Both the position numbers and the translations under genes were made by a program. A DNA stretch of 12,244 nucleotides, from positions 11,620 through 23,863 of the forward strand of contig JADGBP010000002.1 of NCBI GenBank assembly GCA_015231395.1, in the 5' to 3' direction. Position 1 is the stretch's first letter. Each line of letters opens with the position of its first letter. Source of the stretch: Desulfamplus sp. Lineage in GTDB: Bacteria; Desulfobacterota; Desulfobacteria; Desulfobacterales; Desulfobacteraceae. Under the pieces are notes generated by a model. That model worked only from the letters and a program-made list of their open reading frames with translations, made no database searches and was not told the origin of the DNA. Of the stretch, positions 1-12,168 are shown in pieces.

Positions 1-1601
1 ATTTCATAACCAATACTCCCAATTTTACAACCAATACTCCCAGTTGTACAATAAACAGAAAACGTCTTTCAATTCTTGGTTCTACCGGCTCCATCGGCAG
101 AAATGCCCTTAAAATTGTCGCTATGCATCCTGATAGATTTGATGTGACTGTGCTTGCCGGAGCAAACAATGTCAATCTTCTTGCGGAGCAGATAAAAATT
201 TTCAAGCCTGAAATCGCTGTTGTTCTAAATAGTGAACGGGCAGATATGTTGAGATCCGTGTTGTCTGCCAATAGTTTGCCTGATTGTCATAAACATGACT
301 CAAGCAGTTATGGTTCAAACGAATATGATTCAACCGTGCATGATTTAAAATATTCCAACTTGCATGATGTGAAGATTTTATGGGGAGACAGTGGTTATGT
401 TTTGGCTGCTTCCCATGAAAATGTGGATACAGTATTGCTGGCTATGGTTGGGGCATCCGGTCTTATGCCGGCACTTGCCGCCATTGATGCCGGTAAACAT
501 ATTGCCCTTGCGAACAAAGAGACACTAGTTATGGCGGGCGAGATTGTCATGGCACGGGCAGCGGAAAAAGGAGTGACTATCTATCCGGTTGACAGTGAGC
601 ACAGTGCCATTTTTCAATGCATTGAGGGAAACCGTACCAAAGATCTGAAAAAAATTTTCCTTACTGCATCTGGCGGTCCTTTCAGAACCACTCCACGGGA
701 AAAATTTAAAGATATCAGACCTGAAGATGCCCTGAATCATCCCACATGGAGAATGGGCAGCAAGATCACCATTGATTCTGCGACTCTGATGAACAAGGCT
801 CTGGAGATTGTGGAGGCAGTGAGGCTCTTTAATATTGATGTTTCTGATATTGAGGTGCTTGTGCATCCTCAGAGCATTGTTCACTCTATGGTTGGTTTTA
901 ATGATGGGTCTGTAATGGCTCAGATGGGCATGCCAGATATGAAGGCTGCAATATCATACGCGCTATCCTGGCCCGAACGTCTGGATCTTCAACTTGAGCT
1001 TCCAGATTTTGTGGCTTTGGGTTCGCTCTGTTTTGAGCCGCCTGATAAAGAGAAGTTTCCGTCCCTGAACTTTGCTGTTCAAGCATGTAACGAGGGTGGT
1101 ACCCTTCCTGCGGTGATGAACGCCGCCAATGAGATCGCGGTTAATGCATTTTTAAATCATCAGATTGATTTTCCCGAAATATTCATTGTCATTGAAAAAA
1201 CCATGAAGATGCATAAAGTCATAGGCAGAAGAGATGAAAAAAATATGTATGAAAATAGTTCGGGTGAATACGAAACCGTGCCTTGTGAAACCGAGAATCA
1301 GAAAACTTTGTCTTGTGAAACCTTAACGCACGAAACTATGATTCAAGAAATTATACCTCACGATAATCTAACTCGTAAAACCATAACTCACGATAATATA
1401 ACTCGTAAAACCATAACTCACGATAATATAACTCGTAAAACCATAACTCACGATAATATAACTCGTAAAACCATGAATCACGAAAACCTAACTCGTAAAA
1501 CCATGACTCGCAAAAACCTGACTTACACACTTGACGATGTAATCAAGGCTGACAAATGGGCAAGAGAAACAGCAATCCTGCTGATTAAAAAAGGAATCTG
1601 A
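1..1601 (+). CDS. dxr: 1-deoxy-D-xylulose 5-phosphate reductoisomerase, 5'-partial, with repeat insertions
   Basis: Converts 1-deoxy-D-xylulose 5-phosphate to 2-C-methyl-D-erythritol 4-phosphate with NADPH, the committed step of the MEP isoprenoid pathway, in the cytosol. The frame is open to the left edge (first full codon at base 3). The NADPH-binding motif GSTGSIG lies at bases 78-98, upstream of the first ATG (123), so that ATG is not the true start and the gene begins outside the window. Also visible are ANKETLVMAG, the catalytic metal-ligand motif DSEHSAIFQC, the substrate loop HPTWRMGSKITIDSATLMNK, VHPQSIVHSM and the C-terminal MNAANEIAVNAF. About 532 codons are visible against roughly 400 in the family. 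The excess is an N-terminal repeat, an Asp/Ser/His-rich insert near bases 270-365 and a long array of 10-residue repeats before the last helix. rseP follows after 10 bp, a very common pairing. Function is certain; whether the inserts affect activity is unknown. Confidence 0.95.
   Translation, partial: FITNTPNFTTNTPSCTINRKRLSILGSTGSIGRNALKIVAMHPDRFDVTVLAGANNVNLLAEQIKIFKPEIAVVLNSERADMLRSVLSANSLPDCHKHDSSSYGSNEYDSTVHDLKYSNLHDVKILWGDSGYVLAASHENVDTVLLAMVGASGLMPALAAIDAGKHIALANKETLVMAGEIVMARAAEKGVTIYPVDSEHSAIFQCIEGNRTKDLKKIFLTASGGPFRTTPREKFKDIRPEDALNHPTWRMGSKITIDSATLMNKALEIVEAVRLFNIDVSDIEVLVHPQSIVHSMVGFNDGSVMAQMGMPDMKAAISYALSWPERLDLQLELPDFVALGSLCFEPPDKEKFPSLNFAVQACNEGGTLPAVMNAANEIAVNAFLNHQIDFPEIFIVIEKTMKMHKVIGRRDEKNMYENSSGEYETVPCETENQKTLSCETLTHETMIQEIIPHDNLTRKTITHDNITRKTITHDNITRKTITHDNITRKTMNHENLTRKTMTRKNLTYTLDDVIKADKWARETAILLIKKGI
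8..51 (+). repeat. 21-bp tandem repeat in the N-terminal extension of dxr
   Basis: Two 21-bp units start at bases 8 and 29 and share the 14-mer AACCAATACTCCCA. In the dxr frame they encode a Thr/Asn/Pro repeat of about seven residues (TNTPNFT, TNTPSCT) directly before the conserved N-terminal beta strand. More copies may lie left of the window. Confidence 0.7.
1270..1530 (+). repeat. 30-bp in-frame tandem repeat in the C-terminal domain of dxr
   Basis: Three perfect 30-bp copies occupy 1381-1410, 1411-1440 and 1441-1470 (ten residues, ITHDNITRKT). Degenerate units on the same 30-bp spacing lie at 1351-1380 and 1471-1500, fading out to about 1270 on the left and 1530 on the right. The array sits between the conserved MNAANEIAVNAF region and the final helix (TLDDVIKADKWARETA). 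It adds roughly 90 residues and keeps the reading frame. The perfect centre and decayed edges are typical of minisatellite expansion. Confidence 0.9.
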
Positions 1602-1611
1602 AAGGAATATT

Positions 1612-2685
1612 ATGAGCTATTCAATATTTGCATTTGTTATTGTTCTTGGAATTCTTGTGTTTTTCCATGAACTCGGACATTTTCTGGTCGCCCGCTTTTT
1701 TGGCGTGGGTGTGGAGACTTTTTCCTTAGGGTTTGGTCCTAAGATTTACAAACGGAAAGTGGGATTGACAGAGTACTGCATCTCCTTGATACCCCTTGGC
1801 GGGTATGTAAAAATGGTTGGAGAGGAGCCAAAGGAAACCATTGCACCTAAAGATATTGAACTCTCCTTTAGTCAGAAAACTTTATTTCAGAAGTCCATGA
1901 TTGTCGCAGCAGGACCTCTATTTAATTTTTTTCTCGCTTTTCTTATTTTTTACATTATTGCCCAGTTTTCAGGACTCTATATTCTAAAACCTGTGGTCGG
2001 AGGCGTGGGGGAAAACACTCCTGCACATGCCGCGGGAATTCTTGCAGATGATATCATTCAGTCAGTACAGGGAAAACCAGTTAAGTCATGGGATGAATTG
2101 GTTGATATTATTGGTAATGGAACAGGAATGCCTCTTGAAATCATTGTCTTAAGAAAAGAGGCGGTTGTTTCTGTAATGGTGACCCCTGAGCTCAAAATTG
2201 TCAAAAATCTTTTTGGTGAAGATCAGAATAAATATATGATCGGCATATCTGCCAAGTCTGGAGAGATAGAACATATTCCATTGAACCCGTTTCAGGCTAT
2301 TGCAGAGGGAGTGAAACAGACATGGGAAATCTCCTCTCTTACCATTATATCAGTGGTCAAGATTTTTCAGGGAACAGTCTCCACAGATACTCTTGGCGGA
2401 CCAATCATGATTGCACAGATGGCGGGCCAGCAGGCAAAGGCAGGTATTGTCAATCTTGCTTTTTTTATTGCCATGCTTAGCATAAATCTTGGAATTATAA
2501 ATCTATTTCCTGTACCGGTGCTTGATGGCGGTCATCTGTTTTTCTTTGGCATTGAGGCTATTACCGGCAAAGCAACCAGCGATAAAGTCCGCGAAAAGGC
2601 GAATCAGGTTGGAATTGCACTGCTGGTTGCTCTGATGGTATTTGTTTTTTATAATGATATCATAAGAATTTTTAATGGCGGGTAA
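1612..2685 (+). CDS. rseP: RIP metalloprotease RseP (site-2 protease family)
   Basis: Inner-membrane zinc protease that cuts single-pass membrane substrates within the bilayer, classically anti-sigma factors such as RseA, and remnant signal peptides. The first membrane helix carries HELGH (residues 19-23), the zinc and catalytic motif. The usual GFGPKIYKRK and PLGGYVKMVGEEP stretch follows, then a second helix near residues 96-118, one PDZ domain (about residues 120-200), and the C-terminal helix with NLFPVPVLDGGH (Asp305, third zinc ligand). The length of 357 aa is typical for the one-PDZ form; E. coli RseP, with two PDZ domains, is longer. The start is supported by AAGGA at 1602-1606, 5 nt before the ATG. 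It is probably co-transcribed with dxr. No repeat insertion is seen here. The in vivo substrate cannot be read from the sequence. Confidence 0.96.
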   Translation: MSYSIFAFVIVLGILVFFHELGHFLVARFFGVGVETFSLGFGPKIYKRKVGLTEYCISLIPLGGYVKMVGEEPKETIAPKDIELSFSQKTLFQKSMIVAAGPLFNFFLAFLIFYIIAQFSGLYILKPVVGGVGENTPAHAAGILADDIIQSVQGKPVKSWDELVDIIGNGTGMPLEIIVLRKEAVVSVMVTPELKIVKNLFGEDQNKYMIGISAKSGEIEHIPLNPFQAIAEGVKQTWEISSLTIISVVKIFQGTVSTDTLGGPIMIAQMAGQQAKAGIVNLAFFIAMLSINLGIINLFPVPVLDGGHLFFFGIEAITGKATSDKVREKANQVGIALLVALMVFVFYNDIIRIFNGG

Positions 2686-2695
2686 ATTTTTTCAT

Positions 2696-2757
2696 TCAGG
2701 AATTTCAATCCTGCAATTATTGCAGTCATGGATTGACCATCATATTGAAATTCCTGA
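2696..2757. repeat. Large inverted repeat between rseP and hemerythrin
   Basis: A perfect 14-bp inverted repeat (2696-2709 with 2744-2757, TCAGGAATTTCAAT and its complement) encloses a perfect 15-nt palindrome at 2711-2725 (CTGCAATTATTGCAG). It lies in the 99-bp gap between two convergent genes, so it may end transcription or protect RNA ends, but neither side has a clear U tract. Bases 2694-2723 are identical over 30 nt to the reverse complement of 12086-12115, so it belongs to a dispersed repeat family. Confidence 0.7.
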
Positions 2758-2784
2758 GTAAATAATTTTGTAGAATTATTATCG

Positions 2785-3186
2785 TTAAGATACAAATGCT
2801 TTGTATTGTTGGTCCTCTGAAAGAATATGATTAACAAGCCAATTTTCGATGACTTTCATAATTTCTGAATTGAGCATTAAGATTCCATTTTCACAATCAT
2901 CATACATACGATTTAATTGTACCATAAAAGTTTGATGTAGTAGCTTATGTCTGACTAAGTCGGGATAACCGATTTTTTCCATATAGGCTTCTTCAAATGC
3001 AAAATGCATTTTACTATATTCACGCATTGCATTGAGTGCATCAGAACTTAAAGTTGATATTTCTTTATAAACTCCGCTCATCATTTTATCATGGGAAGTA
3101 TTAAAAATTTCAATCCACTTTTGATGCTGATTGTCAATCTCTGAGTGTCCAACGCTAAAATTCTCTGACCATAGTATTTTCGACAC
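2785..3186 (-). CDS. Bacteriohemerythrin
   Basis: A 133-aa single-domain hemerythrin that reversibly binds O2 at a non-heme di-iron site; in bacteria it is used for oxygen storage, delivery or sensing in the cytoplasm. All seven expected iron ligands are present at the family spacing: His21, His61, Glu65, His80, His84, His120 and Asp125. The opening ILWSENFSVGHSEIDNQHQKW is the standard family signature. The start is GTG at 3186, supported by AAAGGA about 7 nt upstream and by identity of this region with the second copy at 12196. The gene converges on rseP. Its promoter lies in the repeat block at 3187-3260; the AT-rich stretch at 3190-3217 could hold a -10 box, but no convincing -35/-10 pair was found. 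There are no repeat insertions. The fold is certain; the physiological role (oxygen scavenging in an anaerobe) is inferred. Confidence 0.93.
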   Translation of the reverse strand: MSKILWSENFSVGHSEIDNQHQKWIEIFNTSHDKMMSGVYKEISTLSSDALNAMREYSKMHFAFEEAYMEKIGYPDLVRHKLLHQTFMVQLNRMYDDCENGILMLNSEIMKVIENWLVNHILSEDQQYKAFVS

Positions 3187-3213
3187 GGAATTTTCCTTTA
3201 TTATTATGTTATA

Positions 3214-3248
3214 TTATTCAGGAATTTAAATCCTGTAATAATTGCAGC
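3214..3248 (+). repeat. Dispersed intergenic repeat, copy in the left arm
   Basis: A 35-bp element running from TTATTCAGGAATTT to ATTGCAGC. Related copies lie at 2694-2725 on the plus strand and, inverted, at 12086-12117 and 12134-12168; the last is an exact mirror of this one. The internal inverted halves GGATTT and AAATCC allow a short hairpin. It sits directly upstream of the hemerythrin start, so it may contribute promoter sequence. Confidence 0.7.
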
Positions 3249-3297
3249 AACGCTGCTTATGTTCATTTTCCAGATAATTAAATAGGCAAGAGTAGGG

Positions 3298-3316
3298 GGC
3301 AACCTTTGCGGTTGCC
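3298..3316 (+). repeat. GGCAACC/GGTTGCC hairpin (REP-like or terminator-like)
   Basis: Perfect 7-bp stem (3298-3304 with 3310-3316) around loop TTTGC, preceded by a G run and followed by TTTCTT. As plus-strand RNA it resembles a weak intrinsic terminator, but no gene reads into it. It is better seen as an intergenic palindrome. GGTTGCC recurs 37 and 74 bp downstream, so the 5' half could pair with any of three partners. A second copy lies at 11997-12015. Confidence 0.6.
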
Positions 3317-3396
3317 TTTCTTATATACGCTTGGCTTTCTTCTTGCGGTTGCCTTTATTATATACGCCTTGCTTTCTTCTTGCGGTTGCCTTTATT
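3306..3396 (+). repeat. 37-bp tandem repeat downstream of trpG
   Basis: Two full 37-bp units (3306-3342, 3343-3379) and a partial third to 3396, built from TTGCGGTTGCCTTT, TATATACGC and GCTTTCTTC. The inverted counterpart lies at about 11930-12007. Read from the TTG at 3306 the repeat is open and spells a hydrophobic, lipoprotein-signal-like peptide, but this copy soon runs antisense into trpG and is not called as a gene. The remaining intergenic DNA to 3445 shows nothing else. Confidence 0.8.
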
Positions 3397-3445
3397 GTGG
3401 GGGGAGGTGGCTTTCAAAATATCCCGAGTTTGCTGTTGAAGATAG

Positions 3446-4024
3446 TCATTCTGATAATAAATTTACAAAATTTCTAATAAGCCGTTTTCCCACACCGGTC
3501 ATGATGGATTCAGGATGAAATTGCACTCCGAATGTGGCATGCTCTATATGACGAATTCCCATGATTTCGCCATCTTCCGCTTTGGCTGTTACTGTCAGAC
3601 AGGCGGGAATCGTATCTTCAGACACTGCAAGGGAGTGATATCGCATGGCGGCAAAAGGTTTTTTGATTCCCGTAAAGATAAACTGCTCGTCTCCTGTCAC
3701 CATTGATGTTTTGCCATGCATTATTCTTTTTGCCTGAATGATATCGCCACCAAATGTATAGGCAATTGCCTGATGCCCAAGGCATACGCCAAGTATTGGC
3801 ATTTTACCTGAAAAGTGTCTGATCGCATCAACTGAGATACCCGCGTCTTCAGGACGTCCGGGACCCGGAGAGATAACAATTCCATTTGGTTTTAAGGCTT
3901 CAATTTCTTTAATGGTAATTTTGTTGTTTCTGAAGACATCAACCTTAGCACCGGACTGCATTATATAGTGGACAAGATTAAAGGTGAATGAGTCATAATT
4001 GTCAATTACAGTTATCAGCGTCAT
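3446..4024 (-). CDS. trpG: Anthranilate synthase component II, glutamine amidotransferase
   Basis: Class I glutamine amidotransferase subunit (192 aa). It releases ammonia from glutamine and passes it to TrpE for anthranilate synthesis from chorismate, the first step of tryptophan biosynthesis. Visible motifs are VIDNYDSFTFNLVHY at the N terminus, the oxyanion segment VISPGPGRPEDAG, the nucleophile elbow GVCLGHQAIAYTFGG (catalytic Cys) and the His-Glu pair in FGVQFHPESIMT near the C terminus; MRYHSLAV is also typical. The start ATG overlaps the trpE stop by 4 nt (ATGA), with a strong GGAGG at 4031-4035 inside trpE, so the two subunits are translationally coupled. PabA is nearly indistinguishable and such subunits can serve both pathways; the trpE neighbour favours TrpG. 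No further trp genes follow; downstream is repeat DNA. Confidence 0.93.
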   Translation of the reverse strand: MTLITVIDNYDSFTFNLVHYIMQSGAKVDVFRNNKITIKEIEALKPNGIVISPGPGRPEDAGISVDAIRHFSGKMPILGVCLGHQAIAYTFGGDIIQAKRIMHGKTSMVTGDEQFIFTGIKKPFAAMRYHSLAVSEDTIPACLTVTAKAEDGEIMGIRHIEHATFGVQFHPESIMTGVGKRLIRNFVNLLSE

Positions 4025-5727
4025 GACCTGCCTCCACAGTTATCTGTTCCGGAGTTCATCAGAGCAAGTTTGAGAGCACGCTCCACACTTCTGGCTTTAT
4101 TCACACACTCCTGATACTCTTTTTCAGGGTCTGAATCAGCCACAATGCCAGCTCCTGCCTGAACCGTCATTTTTCCATAGAGCCCACTTTTGCTGTGTTT
4201 CTCTACAGTCGCTGTTTTCAAGTTTTTCTCTACAGTCGCTGTCTTCAAATTTTTCTCTACAGTCGCTGTCTTCAAATTTTTCTCTACAGTAGCTGTTCTT
4301 ATTGTGATAGCCAGATCCATATTGCCTGAAAAGGATATATATCCAGCTGCACCGCCATAGATACCGCGAGGGCGTTTCTCCATATCTGAAATAATTTCCA
4401 TTGCCCTTATCTTTGGTGCTCCTGAAAGAGTTCCCGCCGGAAAGGTTGCACGCAGCAGATCCCATGCGTCAAAGCTATCCTTCATTTCACATGTGATGTT
4501 GGAGACAAGATGCATCACATGAGAATATCGCTCCACAAACATAAGATCCGTCACCTGCACTGTACCCACTTCAGCTACTCTTCCAAGATCATTTCTGCCA
4601 AGATCCACAAGCATCAAATGCTCGGCACGCTCCTTTTCATCATTTAAAAGCTCATCGGCAAGAGCTCTGTCCTCCTGCTCATTTTTTCCTCTTGGTCTGG
4701 TACCTGCAATGGGGCGAAGCGTGGCTGTCCGGTTTTCTAAACGTACCATGGTCTCAGGAGATGAGCCGGCAATGGCAATCTCCTCAAAATTCATGAAAAA
4801 CATGTATGGTGAAGGATTGATGTATCTTTGTGCTCTGTAAAGCATCACCGGATCCACAGGAACATTGGATGAAAATGGTTGGGAATAGACAGCCTGGATA
4901 ATATCACCGGCAACTATATGTTCTTTTATCTTCTTTACGCCTTCAATATAGGTATCATGGTCAGTTTCTGGAGTAAGTGAAAATTCTATATTTGTTGTAT
5001 CGGAAAATCCCATCATCTTGTTATCTGAGGCAGAAGTGATATCAGGGGCAGAGGTGATATCAGGGGCAGAAGTAATATCAGGGACAGAGGTGATTTGCTG
5101 TGTAAACTGTTGTGTAAAAGGATCACCTATTTTTTGTATTATTTTTTGCAAATGGTCGCATGATTCCTTATAACAGATATTTGCATCTCTGTTTTGAGTA
5201 TGACAGATACTCATGCATGTAAGTGTATGGTTCATGTTATCAAAAATAATCATGGCATCTGGAATGATAAAATGTGCATACAGTCTGTTTTCCTCAAGCA
5301 TGGAGGGAATCTCTTCAAAAAAGGAGACCATTTCATAAGTCATGTAACCGGTAAGTCCGCTCCAAAACCTTGGCAGATCGGTTATATCCGCAGGATTATA
5401 CCGTGATGTAATCTCTTTGAGAGTATGGAGAGGATCTCCGTGGTGAATTATATCTGTAATTTCACCATTCTCTTCAAAAGCAACATGTTTGGCAAATACC
5501 TTAACGTGGCTTCTGGCAGAAAGACCCATAAAACTGTATCGTGCCCAGTGTTCTCCGCCTTCCACACTCTCCAGTAGAAACAGCTCTTTTTCAGGAGAAT
5601 GGAATTTTTGAAGAATGGAAACCGGAGTTTCAGTATCTGCGAGAATTTCCGCACACACCGGTATGACGTTATGTTTCAGGGCAAGTTCACTGAAATCTTC
5701 CTTACAGGGGTATTGTTTTAAAATCAT
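4021..5727 (-). CDS. trpE: Anthranilate synthase component I with two repeat insertions
   Basis: Catalytic subunit that turns chorismate plus ammonia (from TrpG) into anthranilate. The N-terminal domain carries FLLESVEGGEHWARYSFMG, the segment that in TrpE forms the tryptophan feedback site. The chorismate-binding domain shows QAVYSQPF, INPSPYMFFM, GSSPETMVRLEN, RPIAGTRPRG, DLGRNDLGRV, HLVSNITCEM, TFPAGTLSGAPKIRAMEII, RGIYGGAAGYISF and VQAGAGIVADSDPEKEYQE. The ATG at 5727 gives 568 aa and starts just before the conserved YPCKEDFSEL block. Longer starts (ATG 5799, TTG 5811) add an Asn/Ser-rich tail without a ribosome site; the site for 5727 (GGAT) is also weak. Family length is about 460-520 aa. 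The excess comes from a DITSAP/FTQQ insert between the domains and a TATVEKNLK array before the final strand. PabB is less likely because of the feedback-site motif. Confidence 0.93.
   Translation of the reverse strand: MILKQYPCKEDFSELALKHNVIPVCAEILADTETPVSILQKFHSPEKELFLLESVEGGEHWARYSFMGLSARSHVKVFAKHVAFEENGEITDIIHHGDPLHTLKEITSRYNPADITDLPRFWSGLTGYMTYEMVSFFEEIPSMLEENRLYAHFIIPDAMIIFDNMNHTLTCMSICHTQNRDANICYKESCDHLQKIIQKIGDPFTQQFTQQITSVPDITSAPDITSAPDITSASDNKMMGFSDTTNIEFSLTPETDHDTYIEGVKKIKEHIVAGDIIQAVYSQPFSSNVPVDPVMLYRAQRYINPSPYMFFMNFEEIAIAGSSPETMVRLENRTATLRPIAGTRPRGKNEQEDRALADELLNDEKERAEHLMLVDLGRNDLGRVAEVGTVQVTDLMFVERYSHVMHLVSNITCEMKDSFDAWDLLRATFPAGTLSGAPKIRAMEIISDMEKRPRGIYGGAAGYISFSGNMDLAITIRTATVEKNLKTATVEKNLKTATVEKNLKTATVEKHSKSGLYGKMTVQAGAGIVADSDPEKEYQECVNKARSVERALKLALMNSGTDNCGGRS
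4201..4281 (-). repeat. 27-bp in-frame tandem repeat near the C terminus of trpE
   Basis: Three 27-bp units (4201-4227, 4228-4254, 4255-4281; the last two identical) plus a partial fourth match at the native junction from 4282. On the minus strand each encodes nine residues (TATVEKNLK). The insertion lies exactly where TrpE normally runs from AITIRTA into VQAGAGIVAD. The native RTATVEK sequence appears to be the seed that was copied. Confidence 0.92.
5029..5119 (-). repeat. 18-bp and 12-bp in-frame tandem repeats in the trpE interdomain linker
   Basis: Three 18-bp units at 5029-5046, 5047-5064 and 5065-5082 plus a partial fourth (to 5094) encode DITSAP on the minus strand. Next to them two 12-bp units (5096-5119) encode FTQQ twice. 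Together they form a flexible polar linker between the N-terminal feedback domain and the chorismate-binding domain. Confidence 0.88.
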
Positions 5728-5813
5728 ATTTTCTATCCAGAATTTTTTGAAATTTGAGTTTAAAATTTGATAATTTGATGACTGATTACAATTTGGCATT
5801 AATTTTGTCAAGG

Positions 5814-5841
5814 GCTTTGTTTCTTCTTATAGAAACAAAGC
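5814..5841. promoter_or_regulatory. Perfect 10-bp hairpin upstream of trpE
   Basis: GCTTTGTTTC (5814-5823) and its exact complement (5832-5841) flank an 8-nt loop. It lies 87 bp before the trpE ATG on the minus strand and next to TTGACA (5811-5806), a possible -35 box whose matching -10 is poor. It could be an operator or a leader structure; there is no U tract and no leader peptide with Trp codons was seen. Confidence 0.4.
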
Positions 5842-5912
5842 AGACTTCTTTCTTCTTGACATCCATTTAAAAAGAATTGAATAAGAAAGAGGAATTTCTA
5901 TATTCAGGCACT

Positions 5913-5956
5913 GCAAAATCTTAACATTTAGAAGGCAAAATCTTAACATTCAGAAG
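5913..5956 (+). repeat. 22-bp direct repeat upstream of the toxin-antitoxin promoter
   Basis: Two adjacent 22-bp units (5913-5934, 5935-5956) differ at one base; each contains AAAATCTTAACATT. The second supplies the -35 box of the promoter at 5943-5970. The arrangement could give tandem sites for a regulator or simply be a duplicated promoter half. Confidence 0.75.
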
Positions 5957-5970
5957 GCAGATTCTATAAT
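5943..5970 (+). promoter_or_regulatory. Sigma70-type promoter with overlapping palindrome for the antitoxin-toxin operon
   Basis: The -35 box is TTAACA (5943-5948, five of six consensus bases), the spacer 16 bp, and the -10 box a perfect TATAAT (5965-5970). A palindrome, CAGATT-CTAT-AATCTG (5958-5973), covers the -10 box. That is where RelB-family antitoxins normally bind to repress their own operon. The start codon at 6020 lies about 43 bp beyond the expected transcription start. Confidence 0.7.
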
Positions 5971-6019
5971 CTGTTCCTCGTGATAGAACCTAAACTTGTA
6001 ATTAAATAATGAGGATAAA

Positions 6020-6280
6020 ATGGACAAACTGTCAACAATAACAGCAAAAATAGATCCGATATTAAAAGCGGAAGTCGAGATCATTTTTCAAGACATGGAT
6101 TTGTCAATGAATGATGCTATTAATCTTTTTCTTGTTCAGGTAAAACGCTGTAACGCTTTGCCGTTCGAGACAGGAGTACCGAATAAACAAACTGATGAAG
6201 CAATCAATCAAGCAAGAAAAGGAATCGATATGATTGTATGTGACAATGAAAATGACATGTTTAAAAAGTTGGGAATATAA
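6020..6280 (+). CDS. RelB/DinJ-family antitoxin
   Basis: An 86-aa ribbon-helix-helix antitoxin. Residues 1-45 match the DNA-binding part of RelB/DinJ proteins: a short strand (TITAKID), a helix, then LSMNDAINLFLVQV with the family's typical ALPF-type segment (NALPFETGVPN) after it. The C-terminal half is charged and likely wraps the toxin. The start ATG has GAGG at 6011-6014, 5 nt upstream. The stop overlaps the toxin start by one base (TAATG), so translation is coupled. It most probably represses its own promoter through the palindrome at 5958-5973, with the toxin as co-repressor. Family assignment is firm; the symbol is left open because RelB and DinJ subtypes cannot be separated by eye. 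Confidence 0.9.
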   Translation: MDKLSTITAKIDPILKAEVEIIFQDMDLSMNDAINLFLVQVKRCNALPFETGVPNKQTDEAINQARKGIDMIVCDNENDMFKKLGI

Positions 6281-6549
6281 TGCTCAAACCAGTTTATTCA
6301 AAACGATTTGAAAGAGATGTCAAAAGAATCGTTAAACGTGGAAAAAATGTTGAAAAGTTAAAAGAGATAATTCGCAGGCTTATACATAAGGAAATACTGG
6401 AAAAACGCTATTGCAATCATCCCCTTAAAGGTGATTATAATGATTGCTTTGATTGTCATATTGAACCTGACTGGATATTGATATATCGCACGGAAGAGGA
6501 TTATATCCAGTTTCTGAGGACAGGTTCGCATGCGGATTTGTTCAAATGA
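6280..6549 (+). CDS. yafQ: YafQ-family mRNA interferase toxin
   Basis: An 89-aa RelE-superfamily ribonuclease that in characterised relatives cuts mRNA in the ribosomal A site. The residues important in E. coli YafQ (His50, His63, Asp67, Trp68, His87, Phe91) all have counterparts, each shifted by three: His47 (NHPLKGDY), His60, Asp64 and Trp65 (CHIEPDWILIY), His84 (RTGSHADLF) and Phe88. The length is normal and the catalytic set complete, so the toxin is predicted active and kept in check by the upstream antitoxin. Its stop codon overlaps the start of the radical SAM gene by 4 nt (ATGA), unusual for the end of a toxin-antitoxin pair. Confidence 0.92.
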   Translation: MLKPVYSKRFERDVKRIVKRGKNVEKLKEIIRRLIHKEILEKRYCNHPLKGDYNDCFDCHIEPDWILIYRTEEDYIQFLRTGSHADLFK

Positions 6550-8390
6550 TTTTAATATACCCGCCGGTTGCCAAAATATCAGAACCACCACCAGGAGTTG
6601 CAATCCTTTCAGGGGCACTCAAAGAACATGGCATTGACTGCAAAGTGATTGATGCAAATATAGAAGGGATGCTGTGGCTTGCCCGATCTTCTGTCGCCTT
6701 ATGCTCACTTTCTGCCAGTGAATCTTCCATACTTGTATCACAATCCAAAGTTGACAGCTGGAGCAGAAGAGCAATTACTCATTTTGACCGGAACATCTCT
6801 GAACTGAAGGATATAAGATTATATAAAAATATTGCAAAATATCGCCAGAAAGTTATTGATCTGAACAAAGTAATATCTATTGCTCCTGGTTCGCGATTTA
6901 AAGTTTCCATTTCCGATTACACTGACTCTAATCTGACCCCTGTAAAAAGTCAGGATTTGCTAATATCTGCAAGTGAATACAAGGAAAATTTATTTTACCC
7001 CTTTTTTGAAAGCCATCTTGCACAAGAAATTGAAGCACATTCTGCACGAAAAATTGAAACACATCCTGCACAAGAAATTGAAACGCATCTTGCACAAGAA
7101 ATTGAAACACATTCTGCACGAAAAATTCAAACGCATCCTGCACAAACAATTGAAGCTTATCAAGACAGAGAACCTCAAAACAAAAAATCTGAAGATCATT
7201 ATATCGGGATATCTTTGTGTTATCTGAGTCAGGCACTTACCTCCTTTGCCCTTGTCGGCTGGATACGTGCACGATTTCCTGAAAAGAAAATCGTGATGGG
7301 TGGAGGACTTGTAACATCATGGATGAGTATGCCTACATGGAACGATCCATTTAAAGGTCTGGTTGACTGTATGGTAAAGGGCAGGGGAGAGGAGCCTCTT
7401 ATCAGCCTGTGCGGTGGAGGTGGTATAAGTCTTTTACCTGACTTGGAAGTTGAACAAATCTGCAGAAGACCTGACTTGAGCAAAAGATCTAACTTGAAAG
7501 CTAAACAAAGCTATAGACCCAATTTTGATTTTTGCAACTGGGATCAATACATTGCCCCTGGACGGATTCTTCCATTCAGAACCGTCAGCGGATGCTACTG
7601 GAACAAGTGTCGCTTCTGCCCAGAAAAGGCAGAAGGCAACCGTTATAGTCCGGAGAAAAACAGAAATCTTTTAGAAAATTTGTGCCACCTTGTTCATAAA
7701 TATCAGCCTGATTACATCCATTTTATTGACGATGCCATCCCCCCCTCTTTTTTAAAAGCACTTGTTTCACAAAATACCGTTTCAAAGAATCCAGTCTTAC
7801 AAAATACTGTTTCAAATGACTCTATCTCACAAAATATGAGTTTCCCTTTTTTTAAATGGTATGGTTTTGTAAGATTTACAAAAGAGCTTGCTGATCCTGA
7901 ATTCTGCCATGCTTTATACCGTTCTGGATGCAGGCTTTTAAAACTTGGGCTTGAGTCAGGGGATCAGGCAGTTCTTGATAAAATGGAAAAGGGGACTGAT
8001 CTTAATCTTGCATCAAAAGTATTGACATGCCTTAAAAATGCAGGAATTCAAACTTATGTCTATCTTCTTTTTGGTACCCAGTTTGAAGATGAGATTGCGG
8101 CAGAAAAAACTCTTGATTATGTGCTATGCCATAGTGACCAGATATCATTTCTCAATCTTGCCATATTCAACCTGCCTCGTTTCAGCGAAGATGCAAAGAC
8201 TCTTCAGACAAAGATGATCTCTGAAGGTGATCTTTCCCTCTATCTCAGTTTTAAACATCCTATGGATTGGGACAGAAAAAAGGTACGAATCTTTCTTGAC
8301 AAAAAATTTAAGAAACAGTTTTTAATTCGAGATATCTTAAAGCATGATCCCCCTTTTTTTACTTCCAATCATGCCATGTTTGTAGTTTAA
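6546..8390 (+). CDS. B12-binding-type radical SAM protein with repeat insertions
   Basis: A 614-aa protein with the layout of cobalamin-type radical SAM enzymes. The N-terminal Rossmann-like part shows PPPGVAILSGALKEHGIDCKVID, GISLCYLSQALTSFALVGWIRARF, KIVMGGGLVTSW and VKGRGEEPL. The radical SAM core follows, with the 4Fe-4S cluster motif GCYWNKCRFC (Cys350, Cys355, Cys358), DYIHFIDDAIPPS, GCRLLKLGLESGDQAVLDKM and GIQTYVYLLFGT. The spacing is CX4CX2C rather than the usual CX3CX2C. Three repeat-rich inserts lie at about residues 157-206, 297-320 and 405-431. The ATG overlaps the toxin stop (ATGA) and the ribosome site is weak, so translation probably depends on coupling. The P-type ATPase gene follows after 43 bp. 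The substrate is unknown; candidates are methylation or other C-C or C-S chemistry, none indicated by the neighbours. Confidence 0.85.
   Translation: MILIYPPVAKISEPPPGVAILSGALKEHGIDCKVIDANIEGMLWLARSSVALCSLSASESSILVSQSKVDSWSRRAITHFDRNISELKDIRLYKNIAKYRQKVIDLNKVISIAPGSRFKVSISDYTDSNLTPVKSQDLLISASEYKENLFYPFFESHLAQEIEAHSARKIETHPAQEIETHLAQEIETHSARKIQTHPAQTIEAYQDREPQNKKSEDHYIGISLCYLSQALTSFALVGWIRARFPEKKIVMGGGLVTSWMSMPTWNDPFKGLVDCMVKGRGEEPLISLCGGGGISLLPDLEVEQICRRPDLSKRSNLKAKQSYRPNFDFCNWDQYIAPGRILPFRTVSGCYWNKCRFCPEKAEGNRYSPEKNRNLLENLCHLVHKYQPDYIHFIDDAIPPSFLKALVSQNTVSKNPVLQNTVSNDSISQNMSFPFFKWYGFVRFTKELADPEFCHALYRSGCRLLKLGLESGDQAVLDKMEKGTDLNLASKVLTCLKNAGIQTYVYLLFGTQFEDEIAAEKTLDYVLCHSDQISFLNLAIFNLPRFSEDAKTLQTKMISEGDLSLYLSFKHPMDWDRKKVRIFLDKKFKKQFLIRDILKHDPPFFTSNHAMFVV
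7020..7163 (+). repeat. 24-bp in-frame tandem repeat in the radical SAM gene
   Basis: Six consecutive 24-bp units (7020, 7044, 7068, 7092, 7116, 7140) encode eight-residue units such as AQEIETHS and ARKIETHP. Unit 1 pairs best with 4, 2 with 5, and 3 more weakly with 6, so a 72-bp block was duplicated after the basic unit arose. A degenerate half unit at 7006-7019 (FESHL) may be the seed. The array separates the N-terminal segment from the second half of the Rossmann-like domain. Confidence 0.93.
7436..7500 (+). repeat. Degenerate 33-bp/18-bp repeat in the radical SAM gene
   Basis: ACCTGACTTG occurs at 7436 and again 33 bp later at 7469, with a weaker third match (ATCTAACTTG) at 7487. The encoded stretch (PDLEVEQICRRPDLSKRSNL) is polar and lies between GEEPL and the radical SAM core. 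It looks like an older, decayed array. Confidence 0.5.
7767..7838 (+). repeat. 30-bp in-frame repeat within the radical SAM core
   Basis: Two 30-bp units (7767-7796, 7797-7826) and a partial third (7827-7838) share ACAAAATAC and GTTTCAAA. They encode ten-residue units rich in Ser, Asn and Gln (SQNTVSKNPV, LQNTVSNDSI). The insert falls in the barrel between the IDDAIPPS strand and FFKWYGFVRF, presumably in an outer loop. Confidence 0.8.
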
Positions 8391-8433
8391 ACTAACATTT
8401 AGCAGAACTGTATAAAATAAAGGTATAATAATC

Positions 8434-11316
8434 ATGAAGCTGGATTTTAAATCAGAAAAATACAGAGGCTTGACAGAAGAAGATGCAGCACAAAAAATTC
8501 AAACCGAAGGATACAACGAACTTCCATCATCAAAGCCACGTTCTCTTTTTACCATCGGGTTTGAAGTTATCAAAGAGCCCATGTTCCTTCTTCTTGTTGC
8601 GTCAGGCTCATTATATCTGATACTGGGCGATGTTCAGGAAGGTATTATGCTGCTATGTTTTGTCTTTGTTATTATGGGAATTGAGTTCTATCAGGAAAAA
8701 AAGACTGAGAATGCCCTCAATGCCCTCAAGGATATGGCAAGCCCCAGAGCTCTTGTGATTCGTGACGGAGTGGAAAGACGGATTCCTGGAAGAGAGGTGG
8801 TAACTGGAGATATCTTTGTGTTGCAAGAGGGCGACAGAGTTCCTGCAGACGCTGTTGTACTCTATTCTGTCAACCTCCTTGCCGATGAATCGCTTCTGAC
8901 AGGAGAATCCGTGCCTGTAAGGAAATCCGAGTATGATGATTCAAATAACCAGATTGATAATGATAATAGTCATACTCAGAAGGATTCCGAGCATAAAAAT
9001 ATAGAGAATAACAACATAGTGCATAACAACATAGTGCATAACAACATAGTACATAACAATTTAAAAAATCAGCCCGGTGGGGATGATCTGCCTTTTGTCT
9101 ATTCAGGGTCAATGATTGTGCAGGGTAATGGAGTTTTAAAGGCTACAGCCACGGGTATAAATACTGAAATAGGCAAAATAGGAAAAGCTCTGGATGAGGT
9201 TGAAGAGGAACCGACACGTTTGAAAAAAGAGATGGGACTGCTGGTCAGACGTCTTGCTTTTATCGGAATTTTCCTGTGCGTACTTCTTGTTGTTGTTTAC
9301 ACGATAACCCGAGGCGATCTTCTGAATGGCTTTTTGGCGGGAATCACTCTTGCCATGGCAATGCTGCCCGAGGAGTTTCCTGTAGTTCTTACTGTTTTTC
9401 TCGCAATTGGTGCGTGGAGAATGTCAAAACTTCAGGTGCTTACCCGAAAACCTGCGGCTGTTGAAACGCTGGGTTCTGCAACTGTTTTGTGCACTGACAA
9501 AACCGGAACCCTTACGCAGAACAAAATGGCTGTTACAACCCTTTACAATGGAACAGCTTTCCATGATGTAGTCAAAACCGGAAAATTCCCTGAACCGTTT
9601 CATGAGATTATAGAGTTTGGAGTTCTATCCAGCCAGATCAACCCGTTTGACCCAATGGAAAAAGCCATTAAGGAGATGGAAAATGATTATCTTCTCAATA
9701 CCGAACATATCCATACGGATTGGCAGATGGTAAAAGAGTATCCGCTTTCTAAAAAGATGCTTGCCATGTCACGGGTCTTTACAAATACGGGCAACGCAGC
9801 AAAGAGTGCACATGGAATCAAGGAGCAGACCATTGCGGCAAAAGGTGCTCCGGAAGCGATTTTCGATTTATGTCATTTAAGCGAAGCAACACAGGAAAAG
9901 TACGCGGAAGCAACGGCACGAATGGCGGCATCAGGCTTAAGGGTGTTGGGTGTAGCAAAATCCACAATAAAAGAGAGCCCTTTTATCAAAAAAAAGCTAT
10001 CTACCATAAATGAAAAGCCTCTGTCCGAAAATGACAAGACACTGCCCGAAAATGAAGAGGTGTTGCCTGAAAATGACAAGACACTATTTGAAAATAAAAA
10101 GGCACTGTCCGAAAACAAAAACACACTGTACCAAAATAAAAAGGCACTGCCCGAAAATGAAGCGACATTGCCGGGAGATCAGCATGAGTTCAACTTTAAA
10201 TTTGTTGGGCTTATAGGGCTGTCTGATCCCATAAGAGAAAATGTGCCACAGGCTGTGAAGGAGTGTTATCAGGCTGGTATCAGGGTAATTATGATTACTG
10301 GAGATTATCCGGTTACAGCTCAAAATATTGCAGGCGACATAGGACTAAAACACCACAATCGATCGATTACCGGTGATGAACTGCGGTCAATGAGCGAGGA
10401 ATCTCTTTGCGATCAGATAAAAGATGTTAATCTCTTCGCAAGGGTAGCTCCTGAACAGAAACTCAAAATCGTCAATTCGCTTAGAAAAAATGGCGAAGTG
10501 GTTGCCATGACCGGCGATGGAGTAAACGATGCCCCAGCTCTTAAAGCGGCTGATATTGGTATCGCCATGGGAGAGAAAGGGACAGATGTGGCAAGGGAAT
10601 CCTCTTCATTGGTACTGATGGATGACAACTTTGCCTCCATTGTCCGGGCGATAAGGATGGGACGCCGTATTTTTGATAATCTGCAAAAGGCTTTGGGATA
10701 TATTTTCGCTATTCATGTACCAATTGCAGGACTTTCACTCATGCCCATATTTTTTAAAGATCTTCCACTGATCCTGTGGCCTGTTCATATTGTCTTTCTG
10801 GAGTTGATTATTGATCCGGCATGTTCCATTATTTTTGAGGCAGAGCAAGAAGAAAGCAATGTAATGAGCCGTCCTCCAAGACAAATTAACGAGCCTTTTT
10901 TTGGAATAGACAAAATCATGATGAGCTGCACACAGGGACTCTGCGTGTTGGTTGTGGTGCTTCTGGTATATGCTCTGGGGCTTTATTCAGGGTATGCGGA
11001 AAGGGAGGTCAGAGCCTTGACATTTACGACTCTTATCGCATCAAATATTGCGGTGATTCTTTCCAATCGTTCATGGACAATGAACATCTTTCAAATTCTT
11101 ATGACACCCAACAGAACTGTGAAATGGGTTGTTGGCGGGGCGATTTTTTTTCTGACCCTTAGTCTGAATGTCCCGTTTCTGCTGGATCTGTTTAAATTTG
11201 AACGGATTAATTTTTTTGAAGCTCTTTTATGCACTGCTGCTGGAAGTTTAACTATTATATGGTTTGAGATTTACAAATGCTTTAGACTCAAAAAAATATG
11301 GGGATTTAAAGCATAG
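8434..11316 (+). CDS. P-type cation-transporting ATPase (P2/PacL-like) with repeat insertions
   Basis: A 960-aa inner-membrane pump with the full P2-type layout. These are the N-terminal cation-ATPase domain (GLTEEDAAQKIQTEGYNELP), M1-M2, actuator domain with TGES (156-159), M3-M4 with PEEFPVVL (312-319), phosphorylated Asp355 in DKTGTLTQNK, nucleotide-binding domain (KGAPEAIF), hinge GDGVNDAPALKAADIGIAMG (from 694) and six C-terminal helices. M4 reads PEEF instead of the PEGL of Ca2+ pumps, M5 has HVPIA and M6 has ELIIDP, so the ion is uncertain. Ca2+ or another divalent metal is plausible; no heavy-metal CPC motif is present. The start has AAAGG at 8419-8423. Two inserts lengthen it: an Asn/His-rich one after TGES and a seven-residue array in the nucleotide-binding domain. 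It probably forms an operon with the radical SAM gene. Confidence 0.93.
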   Translation: MKLDFKSEKYRGLTEEDAAQKIQTEGYNELPSSKPRSLFTIGFEVIKEPMFLLLVASGSLYLILGDVQEGIMLLCFVFVIMGIEFYQEKKTENALNALKDMASPRALVIRDGVERRIPGREVVTGDIFVLQEGDRVPADAVVLYSVNLLADESLLTGESVPVRKSEYDDSNNQIDNDNSHTQKDSEHKNIENNNIVHNNIVHNNIVHNNLKNQPGGDDLPFVYSGSMIVQGNGVLKATATGINTEIGKIGKALDEVEEEPTRLKKEMGLLVRRLAFIGIFLCVLLVVVYTITRGDLLNGFLAGITLAMAMLPEEFPVVLTVFLAIGAWRMSKLQVLTRKPAAVETLGSATVLCTDKTGTLTQNKMAVTTLYNGTAFHDVVKTGKFPEPFHEIIEFGVLSSQINPFDPMEKAIKEMENDYLLNTEHIHTDWQMVKEYPLSKKMLAMSRVFTNTGNAAKSAHGIKEQTIAAKGAPEAIFDLCHLSEATQEKYAEATARMAASGLRVLGVAKSTIKESPFIKKKLSTINEKPLSENDKTLPENEEVLPENDKTLFENKKALSENKNTLYQNKKALPENEATLPGDQHEFNFKFVGLIGLSDPIRENVPQAVKECYQAGIRVIMITGDYPVTAQNIAGDIGLKHHNRSITGDELRSMSEESLCDQIKDVNLFARVAPEQKLKIVNSLRKNGEVVAMTGDGVNDAPALKAADIGIAMGEKGTDVARESSSLVLMDDNFASIVRAIRMGRRIFDNLQKALGYIFAIHVPIAGLSLMPIFFKDLPLILWPVHIVFLELIIDPACSIIFEAEQEESNVMSRPPRQINEPFFGIDKIMMSCTQGLCVLVVVLLVYALGLYSGYAEREVRALTFTTLIASNIAVILSNRSWTMNIFQILMTPNRTVKWVVGGAIFFLTLSLNVPFLLDLFKFERINFFEALLCTAAGSLTIIWFEIYKCFRLKKIWGFKA
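9010..9060 (+). repeat. 15-bp in-frame tandem repeat in the ATPase actuator domain
   Basis: Three 15-bp units (9010-9024, 9025-9039, 9040-9054) and a partial fourth encode NNIVH repeats. They sit within a longer Asn/Asp/His-rich insert (about 8930-9085) between TGESVPVRKSE and LPFVYSGSMIVQGNG, a surface loop of the actuator domain in P2-type pumps. Confidence 0.92.
10021..10167 (+). repeat. 21-bp in-frame tandem repeat in the ATPase nucleotide-binding domain
   Basis: Seven 21-bp units (10021, 10042, 10063, 10084, 10105, 10126, 10147) encode seven-residue repeats of the form L-(P/S)-E-N-x-(K/E)-(T/A). They are flanked by degenerate starts on the left (STINEKP) and LPGD on the right. The array lies between LRVLGVAKS and FKFVGLIGLSDPIR, where the nucleotide-binding domain returns to the phosphorylation domain. 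The heptad spacing with Leu at every first position could form a charged helix. Confidence 0.93.
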
Positions 11317-12007
11317 GGCTTTCGGATGAATATGATAATATGATGGACTCAAGCCACTTACTGCCAGTATCTGCAATAGATGCATCAAGACTTTGAATGA
11401 CACGGATATAATCTTGCCCATGCTCCCTGAGTCCTTTTTCAATAGCAATAACAAGTTCTTCAGGGGGCACAGGAACGCTCATTTTTCTGCGTTGTTCAAA
11501 ATTTTCGCGTAAAGACGGCCATTCTTGAATAACCACATCATGTTCTTCAATCACAGGTGTAATTTTACCCCCATTGCCAGAAAGTATCAGCTCTTTTGAC
11601 CTGCCAAGCCTGTTCACAAAATCGTCAAGCCTGTTAATTCTCTCGTCAATAGCAGACTCAAGCACCTTCATCATGCCTATAAGCAGTTGCCGTGAAAAAA
11701 AATCTGATACAAACATAGACCTTATATGAAAATACCAGCTCATAAGTCCTTCAAGTCCTTCAATATATAAACAGTTGTTCCTATATATTCTTTTGACATT
11801 GCTATAAACCCCCTCTTTTCTTGCCAGAACCGTCTCTCGCATACCTCCGCCGAACATTAGCCTGTCTGGCTCTTCAATATCCTTTCTCCATATAGTACCG
11901 GCAGATGTAACAGACCCAAAAGGCAGTCTGCAAGAAGAAAGCAAGGCGTATATAAGAAAGGCAACCGCAAGAAGAAAGCCAGGCGTATATAAGAAAGGCA
12001 ACCGCAA
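11306..12007 (-). CDS. Protein of unknown function; start in repeat DNA uncertain
   Basis: An open frame of 233 codons from a TTG at 12007, or 183 from the ATG at 11857 (FGGGMRETVLARKEGVYSNV follows). I do not recognise a family. The part from residue 30 on has normal protein composition: a mixed segment with aromatic residues (NNCLYIEGLEGLMSWYFHIR), a long charged helical stretch (LESAIDERINRLDDFVNRLG), then VPVPPEELVIAIEKGLREHG. From the TTG start, residues 1-26 come entirely from the 37-bp repeat and resemble a lipoprotein signal peptide: one Arg, a hydrophobic run, and LSSC as lipobox. AGGGG lies 6 nt before the TTG. Either the repeat inserted at the front of an existing gene or it supplies the real start. 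No ribosome site is convincing for 11857. The 3' end overlaps the convergent ATPase gene by 11 bp. Confidence 0.55.
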   Translation of the reverse strand: MRLPFLYTPGFLLAVAFLIYALLSSCRLPFGSVTSAGTIWRKDIEEPDRLMFGGGMRETVLARKEGVYSNVKRIYRNNCLYIEGLEGLMSWYFHIRSMFVSDFFSRQLLIGMMKVLESAIDERINRLDDFVNRLGRSKELILSGNGGKITPVIEEHDVVIQEWPSLRENFEQRRKMSVPVPPEELVIAIEKGLREHGQDYIRVIQSLDASIADTGSKWLESIILSYSSESPML

Positions 12008-12055: not shown

Positions 12056-12125
12056 ACGGGCTTTGCAGCAATGTAGCCTCAAGCCGCAATTATTGCAGGA
12101 TTGAAATTCCTGAATAAGAACATAA
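12056..12125. repeat. 70-bp segment present only in the right arm
   Basis: Absent from the left arm and flanked by the 8-bp direct repeat GAACATAA (12048-12055 and 12118-12125). It contains one more copy of the dispersed repeat (12086-12117). This fits either a small insertion with an 8-bp target duplication or a diverged tandem duplication whose counterpart was lost from the left arm by recombination between the 8-bp repeats. Confidence 0.75.
12086..12117 (-). repeat. Dispersed intergenic repeat, first copy in the right arm
   Basis: Thirty bases (12086-12115) are the exact reverse complement of 2694-2723 beside rseP. This copy therefore resembles the rseP-side element more closely than its neighbour at 12134-12168. 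Confidence 0.75.
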
Positions 12126-12133
12126 GCAGCGTT

Positions 12134-12168
12134 GCTGCAATTATTACAGGATTTAAATTCCTGAATAA
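12134..12168 (-). repeat. Dispersed intergenic repeat, second copy in the right arm
   Basis: Exact mirror of 3214-3248 in the left arm, placed just upstream of the second hemerythrin start. It lies about 50 bp from the first copy, in the same orientation. Confidence 0.75.

Follow-up and report, generated by a model that had tools for sequence, protein, structure and literature searches.

We think it probable that short DNA segments are duplicated and expanded in tandem throughout the genome of a Desulfamplus species, that within genes the products are filtered by reading frame and by the polarity of the residues they encode, and that the surviving arrays then decay. The evidence comes from a stretch of 12,244 nt (the window, positions 11620-23863 of contig JADGBP010000002.1, our label G000:C222) and from a wider sampling of its genome and of related and unrelated bacteria. 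Tandem repeats within genes are already known; their density in the core enzymes of a bacterium appears to be the new element. New protein segments are usually inferred from old inserts. Here clean arrays (birth), their growth and their apparent decay (non-repetitive inserts in the same loop) can be seen together in the enzymes of sister species.

Genome sampling and array detection

The source genome is a 2.81 Mb assembly in 548 contigs, 52% complete, with a G+C content of about 40%. Together with nine other genomes of its genus (G001-G009) it forms a set of ten, in which it is labelled G000. The nearest named relatives of its Dxr in genome contigs were Desulfamplus sp. assemblies (61-71% identity over the best segment), and among the 120 homologue proteins listed there was no near-identical strain of the source species, the best match after the window's own being 79%. 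For TRF analysis we sampled 613 kb of the source genome (60 loci on contigs chosen partly by length, so the sample is not random), 400 kb of G007, 400 kb of G001 and 400 kb for four family genera (the family controls); 75 loci from many bacteria served as a broad control. Arrays are merged TRF rows with a score of at least 50. Genes are greedily picked ORFs with at least 300 non-array bases, with no gene finder behind the calls, and arrays at ORF edges (33 in the source genome, 5 in G007 and 4 in G001) were excluded before coding and intergenic arrays were counted.

Tandem arrays in the window

Twelve merged arrays were found in the window, where 100 shuffles of the same sequence in 60-bp blocks averaged 0.11 and never gave more than 1. 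Nine lie in the reading frames of Dxr, TrpE, a radical-SAM-like protein and a P-type ATPase, every one with a unit length that is a multiple of three; as head-to-tail copies, in frame, of units of about 10-100 bp, these nine are in-gene minisatellites. The TRF coordinates and the block-shuffle control thus confirm an earlier sequence-only reading of the window, which had reported in-frame tandem arrays in these four unrelated enzymes. The 12-bp units that it also listed for them did not hold up, since none reaches a score of 50 in the four enzymes; the sole 12-bp row (score 36) falls in rseP, at 2615-2639. Its statement that the arrays lie between motifs and never within one is right in part: they fall between conserved blocks, but the Pfam domains of TrpE, the ATPase and Dxr are interrupted. 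The other three of the 12 arrays lie outside recognised genes, and none has a unit divisible by three. TRF places a 37-bp array of 2.5 copies at 3306..3396 and a 22-bp array of 2.1 copies at 5913..5959, both intergenic, and a 37-bp array of 2.1 copies at 11930..12007, which is an inverted copy of the 3306-3396 unit and lies in the 5' part of a 233-aa ORF.

Extra sequence in Dxr and TrpE

The dxr gene (1..1601, forward strand) encodes 1-deoxy-D-xylulose-5-phosphate reductoisomerase, identified by Pfam and by TIGR00243 (444.8 bits, cut-off 315.7), with extra sequence in two loops. Loop insert 1 (273..362, forward strand) is polar and non-repetitive, with 30 residues here against 0-7 in 32 more distant Dxr proteins, and may be a decayed array. 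Loop insert 2 (1254..1547, forward strand) adds about 98 residues before the last helix, where the 32 more distant proteins have no extra residues; it contains a 30-bp array of 5.2 copies with a 15-bp sub-unit (1353..1509, forward strand, TRF). A further TRF array, with a 21-bp unit and 2.4 copies (1..51, forward strand), is in frame with the Dxr core and upstream of it. This array precedes the usual Dxr start, its start codon lies outside the window and a run of N stands just before the window; it is putatively coding.

We aligned 48 of at least 120 Dxr homologues and split them by rank into an ingroup of the 16 best matches and an outgroup of the 32 others. At the insert sites the ingroup varies from 0 to 98 residues, whereas in the outgroup one site holds 0-7 residues and the others are empty. 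Members of the genus do not all carry inserts: the D. magnetovallimortis Dxr (P0016) has only 4 extra residues, all of them at site 1. An AlphaFold model of the 516-aa Dxr, based on 48 sequences, has a mean pLDDT of 73.5, with 339 of the 516 residues at 70 or above. Values below 50 occur at residues 79-101 and 395-488, which fall within the inserts and in loops, and at 234-241, which is not at an insert; across residues 391-490 (insert 2) the block means are 25-54. On this prediction, the Dxr inserts are probably disordered.

The trpE gene (4021..5811, reverse strand), encoding anthranilate synthase component I, matches PF00425 and PF04715 over their cut-offs. Its best NCBIfam match, TIGR00564, gives 492.4 bits and falls under the cut-off of 517.7. 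The shortfall, which presumably stems from the inserts, matters for annotation. An 18-bp array of 3.7 copies (5029..5094, reverse strand, TRF) separates the N-terminal and chorismate-binding domains assigned by Pfam. A 27-bp array, also of 3.7 copies (4198..4297, reverse strand, TRF), falls where the solved homologue 7bvd makes a turn: TrpE residues 510 and 546 correspond to 479 and 481 of that structure, with a weak match for the second stretch (i-Evalue 0.03). At this site (516-551 in the aligned open-frame numbering) the source genome alone among the 10 genus genomes has the array, of 34 residues. G008, G003, G004, G001 and G002 have 0 residues there, and G006, G005, G007 and G009 have inserts of 26, 26, 26 and 13 residues, respectively, that are non-repetitive by eye. 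The alignment to relatives supports the suggestion that the TrpE array grew from the native residues RTATVEK.

Arrays in the radical-SAM-like protein and the P-type ATPase

The B12/radical-SAM-like protein (6546..8390, forward strand) has sub-cut-off matches only, to PF04055, PF02310, TIGR03975 and others. Its three arrays, all on the forward strand, were compared with two relatives only: a 24-bp array of 6.2 copies with a 72-bp higher order (7006..7154; 52 residues at the site, against 12 and 2 in the relatives), an 18-bp array of 2.0 copies (7462..7497; 30 residues, against 6 and 12) and a 30-bp array of 2.3 copies with a 15-bp sub-unit (7767..7836; 22 residues, against 1 and 0).

The P-type ATPase (8434..11316, forward strand) is closest to the Ca2+-type. 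It passes TIGR01494 (288.9 bits, cut-off 62.3), scores 508.7 bits with TIGR01522, under the cut-off of 798.3, and has 6zhf as its best PDB match. A 15-bp array of 4.7 copies (8989..9059, forward strand, TRF) follows the TGES motif; ATPase residues 164 and 216 correspond to positions 174 and 186 in 6zhf. The second array (21 bp, 7.3 copies; 10008..10161, forward strand, TRF) is N-terminal to a block, GLIGLSDPIRE, that is conserved in the alignment of relatives. Three of the nine genus relatives, several of which have incomplete genomes, possess a clear ortholog (G008, G003 and G004). The inserts of these orthologs, some of them incomplete, differ, yet they occupy the same loops.

Array density across the genome

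The source genome as a whole is enriched in arrays, with 470 per Mb (TRF score at least 50) compared with 231 in G001, 138 in G007, 43 in the family controls and 92 in the broad loci; shuffled samples gave 2.5 to 12.5 per Mb, the source sample 8. Array bases occupy 2.4% of its coding sequence; in the broad loci the figure is 0.38%. Arrays are 3.5-fold denser between genes (105.5 per 100 kb) than in coding sequence (30.2 per 100 kb). Of 445 ORFs that reach at least 100 aa without their arrays, 93 contain an array whose unit is a multiple of three, from 10 of 124 at 100-200 aa to 22 of 44 at 700 aa or more. The earlier impression that short genes are spared is mostly unsupported: arrays per 100 kb number 20.1 in ORFs of 100-200 aa and 34.5, 17.5, 28.4 and 35.6 in successively longer classes, the last of at least 700 aa. 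Since array density shows no steady trend with length among ORFs of at least 100 aa, short genes are mainly small targets. A Pfam scan of ten hand-picked array hosts matched all ten, among them CarB, polyprenyl synthase, NamZ, a sigma-54 activator, a histidine kinase and CbiZ.

Arrays with a step of 18-24 bp number 217 per Mb in the source genome, 65 in G001, 70 in G007 and 22-25 in the controls. By our own re-implementation of a published satellite rule (PMC6749651), which makes scales only roughly comparable, SATFIND-like satellites number 55.5 per Mb in the source genome, 40.2 in G001, 2.5 in G007, 6.2 in the broad loci and 0-12.5 in the family controls. G007 has few regular multi-copy arrays (1 SATFIND-like in 0.40 Mb, below the broad loci), so the activity is not uniform within the genus.

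We also counted inserts of at least 8 residues in BLAST alignments (query vs subject), a measure that leans to the query (controls against broad loci, 3 vs 0 in 19 pairs) and in which BLAST also halts at long inserts. Counts for the source genome were 16 vs 4 against the family controls (48 pairs), 9 vs 3 against the broad loci (22 pairs), 21 vs 10 against G001 (63 pairs) and a nearly even 23 vs 19 against G007 (58 pairs). G007 gave 3 vs 0 with controls (18 pairs) and 7 vs 2 with broad loci (16 pairs); G001 gave 7 vs 2 (28 pairs) and 8 vs 0 (22 pairs).

Frame and polarity of coding arrays

Coding arrays are filtered by frame. In the source genome 140 of 157 coding arrays have units divisible by three, against 44 of 98 intergenic arrays (Fisher p 2.5e-14), and this contrast, together with the density of arrays, supports the local, frame-filtered repeat expansion that the sequence-only reading had proposed. 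G001 (coding 43/45, intergenic 18/43) and G007 (coding 36/42, intergenic 4/8) were scored in the same way, as were the broad loci (coding 38/50, intergenic 15/45). The frame filter as such is therefore ordinary, and array density is the unusual part. Seventeen of the 157 coding arrays of the source genome have units that are not divisible by three. The median unit is 21 bp in its coding and intergenic arrays alike, and coding and intergenic periods are similarly distributed, with borderline KS tests (p 0.059 in the source genome, 0.050 in G001). Multiples of three are slightly over-represented among its intergenic units (p 0.018), perhaps because some coding sequence was missed. The frame pattern is as expected from one mutational process followed by loss of frame-breaking events.

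The encoded stretches are polar. For the 140 coding arrays read in their real frame the median GRAVY is -1.02, compared with -0.29 for their hosts, +0.33 for the same arrays in other stop-free frames and +0.22 for intergenic arrays in stop-free frames. A dN/dS-like ratio between adjacent copies is 0.82 in the source genome (from 114 of the 157 coding arrays), 0.73 in G007 and 0.48 in G001. Constraint is thus weak in the source genome and stronger in G001, and the two lower values indicate that some arrays are constrained; copy-to-copy differences in the 114 arrays fall at the three codon positions in the numbers 228, 211 and 285. The arrays are thus weakly constrained polar inserts in globular core proteins, with disorder predicted from the low pLDDT of one model, that of Dxr.

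Origin of the arrays

We propose that short DNA segments, mostly of about 12-36 bp with a median of 21 bp, would be tandemly duplicated often and regardless of their sequence, both within and between genes. Slipped-strand misalignment during replication or repair would be the simplest molecular step, and we infer it as the best mechanism because loss of mismatch repair, RecJ, XseA or SbcD is unsupported. Within genes, the survivors would mainly be events that keep the frame and add, in a loop that tolerates it, a stretch that is polar and probably disordered. Surviving arrays would drift under weak constraint and then decay to non-repetitive inserts, with the outcome that each species' enzymes bear different inserts at the same few loops. 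Expansion may be going on at present (one genome per species was compared, and P0001 has one member sequence), and the inserts may be near-neutral for the host. What the data show are the enrichment, the filter by frame, the polar character of the arrays, the reuse of the same sites and the differences among lineages. More speculatively, and we hold this only as a tentative possibility, a duplication activity specific to Desulfamplus, with a preferred step of about 18-24 bp, might serve as a permanent source of new segments for proteins, in which core enzymes would continually gain, grow and lose disordered loops; this would apparently take in repair proteins such as MutS and RecJ.

The inserts might instead be driven by positive selection for polar disordered linkers that serve solubility, assembly or scaffolding, on top of an ordinary repeat process. 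The strong in-frame polarity of the arrays, the repeated reuse of the same loops and the dN/dS-like ratios below 1 (lowest in G001) all fit such selection. We nevertheless think it unlikely, because arrays are also enriched between genes, with units of the same size class, because neither the sequence nor the length of inserts is conserved among sister species where the four genes were compared, and because in-frame arrays occur in about a fifth of ORFs (the 93 of 445 above), with varied kinds of host among the ten scanned. The selection for polar linkers suggested by the sequence-only reading seems to act as a screen on which inserts are tolerated and not as the engine. Its other suggestion, lax mismatch repair, is unsupported, and we regard a repair deficiency that destabilises repeats as very improbable. 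MutS gave no match in the source genome, which is 52% complete, and homopolymers of at least 8 nt are commoner there (387 per Mb) than in composition-matched broad loci (216 per Mb). However, MutL is over the cut-off in all ten genus genomes and MutS in seven, including the array-rich G001 (G002 and G004 have fragments), and there is no clear microsatellite excess: the homopolymers of at least 8 are within the range of the family controls (225-583 per Mb) and at Markov expectation (237 observed, 250 expected), and those of at least 10 (11 per Mb; controls 0-25) are below it, with 7 observed against 38 expected. Bacterial mismatch repair is not known to act on loops of more than about 4 nt.

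Ordinary repeat-protein families would account for the few long-period arrays, with periods of 149 and 69 bp, which do resemble repeat domains, but most scanned hosts are globular enzymes or regulators (CarB, polyprenyl synthase and NamZ among them), and the Dxr and TrpE inserts are missing or different in relatives (absence in distant taxa was shown for Dxr only). As far as tested, then, the arrays are not conserved features of their families, and this explanation is highly improbable as a general one. We give scarcely any credence to in-frame insertion of a mobile element resembling the Rickettsia palindromic elements. A dispersed REP-like family does exist between genes, yet the arrays are head-to-tail, the TrpE array copies native sequence, and in-gene units share little beyond chance. 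When 90 coding units of at least 2.5 copies and 123 other units were compared, 5 of 4005 pairs of in-gene units had a common 11-mer (shuffled mean 1.9), and 22 of 7503 pairs of other units did (shuffled mean 6.2), some of them in REP-like families. The in-gene units are thus nearly unrelated, in agreement with the earlier remark that their sequences are not shared between genes, and a shared element family of the Rickettsia type is rejected for them. Assembly artefact in a fragmented metagenome bin is just as hard to credit. The 548 contigs and the N runs in several of them, one just before the window, would allow for it, but G001 has the same kind of arrays, and point changes distinguish the copies, whose match ranges from 66 to 100% among 67 coding arrays with at least 3 copies. 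Inserts at the same sites also appear in other assemblies; as far as tested, the arrays and inserts in independent assemblies of other genus members speak against assembly error.

Repair genes

Profile searches for MutS, MutL, RecJ, XseA and SbcD revealed no gene responsible for the expansion. Nine of the 10 genus genomes have RecJ over the cut-off and nine have XseA, and SbcD, in 4 of 10 inside the genus and 6 of 15 outside, is patchy in both. Loss of RecJ, exonuclease VII (XseA) or SbcD as the cause is unsupported, as no genus-specific absence was seen.

Several repair genes have long frames or split matches. The MutS matches in G003:C7 and G008:C246, whose open frames measure 947 and 955 aa, break at model positions 373-383. 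The MutL frame in G000:C289 has 782 aa, and the RecJ frames in G000:C530 and G007:C27, with split matches, have 698 and 666 aa. Long frames occur outside the genus too (MutL of 700 and 736 aa in G010 and G032, RecJ of 710 aa in G027), so only the split matches are telling; judged from sequence, repair genes may carry inserts as well. RecJ matches were found on two contigs each in G000, G004, G006, G007, G008 and G009, which probably have two RecJ-like genes.

Comparison with known repeat systems

The nearest analogue in its working, with no kinship claimed, is the non-globular sequence of Plasmodium falciparum, whose low-complexity inserts are likewise hydrophilic, weakly constrained extra sequence in many proteins. 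Low complexity in P. falciparum is homopolymer-like. Plasmodium is a eukaryote, whereas the host here is a bacterium of about 40% G+C in which units of 12-36 bp dominate. For the non-aligned regions of P. falciparum proteins, a dN/dS of 0.64 has been given and replication slippage named (PMC3197514).

Among prokaryotes, satellites were surveyed by Subirana and Messeguer (2019). In that work the units of likely coding satellites are mostly multiples of three, and just 18 of the 119 bacteria have more than 4 satellites per Mb (PMC6749651). Multiples of three are common to both data sets; the source genome has 55.5 per Mb on the rough scale of our re-implemented rule, and units here sit in globular core enzymes. 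No word beginning Desulf occurs in the searched text of that paper. Rickettsia palindromic elements are in-frame inserts in unrelated metabolic genes (PMC10969869), but they are ~150 bp long and form named families with a conserved peptide, and the units here are short, tandem and unrelated between genes. The SD repeats of staphylococcal surface adhesins are also in-frame minisatellites (PMC3324548); unlike those, the arrays described here occur genome-wide in enzymes and regulators too.

Our search, which left most subscription literature outside its reach, found no description of such array density in bacterial core enzymes or in Desulfamplus. The sole paper it returned on Desulfamplus and tandem repeats concerns magnetochrome domains. 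Since the genus includes D. magnetovallimortis strain BW-1 (PMC9534983), the mutational engine and the cost of inserts could be measured.

Intergenic elements and neighbouring genes of the window

The core pattern of the 37-bp unit occurs four times in the sample of the source genome, all in this window (3306-3396 and 11930-12007), and is absent from the samples taken from G007, G001 and the four family genera; a plasmid search with this intergenic repeat gave no match. The 233-aa ORF (11306-12007) has no Pfam or NCBIfam match, and its start is doubtful, its 5' end being the 37-bp repeat. A REP-like dispersed intergenic element lies at 2699, 3221-3260 and 12110-12161, with tandem copies elsewhere in the source genome. 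Its two core motifs have 8 and 15 matches in the sample of that genome and 0 in those of G007, G001 and the four family genera. A RelB/YafQ-type toxin-antitoxin pair occupies 6020-6549, between trpE and the radical SAM gene.
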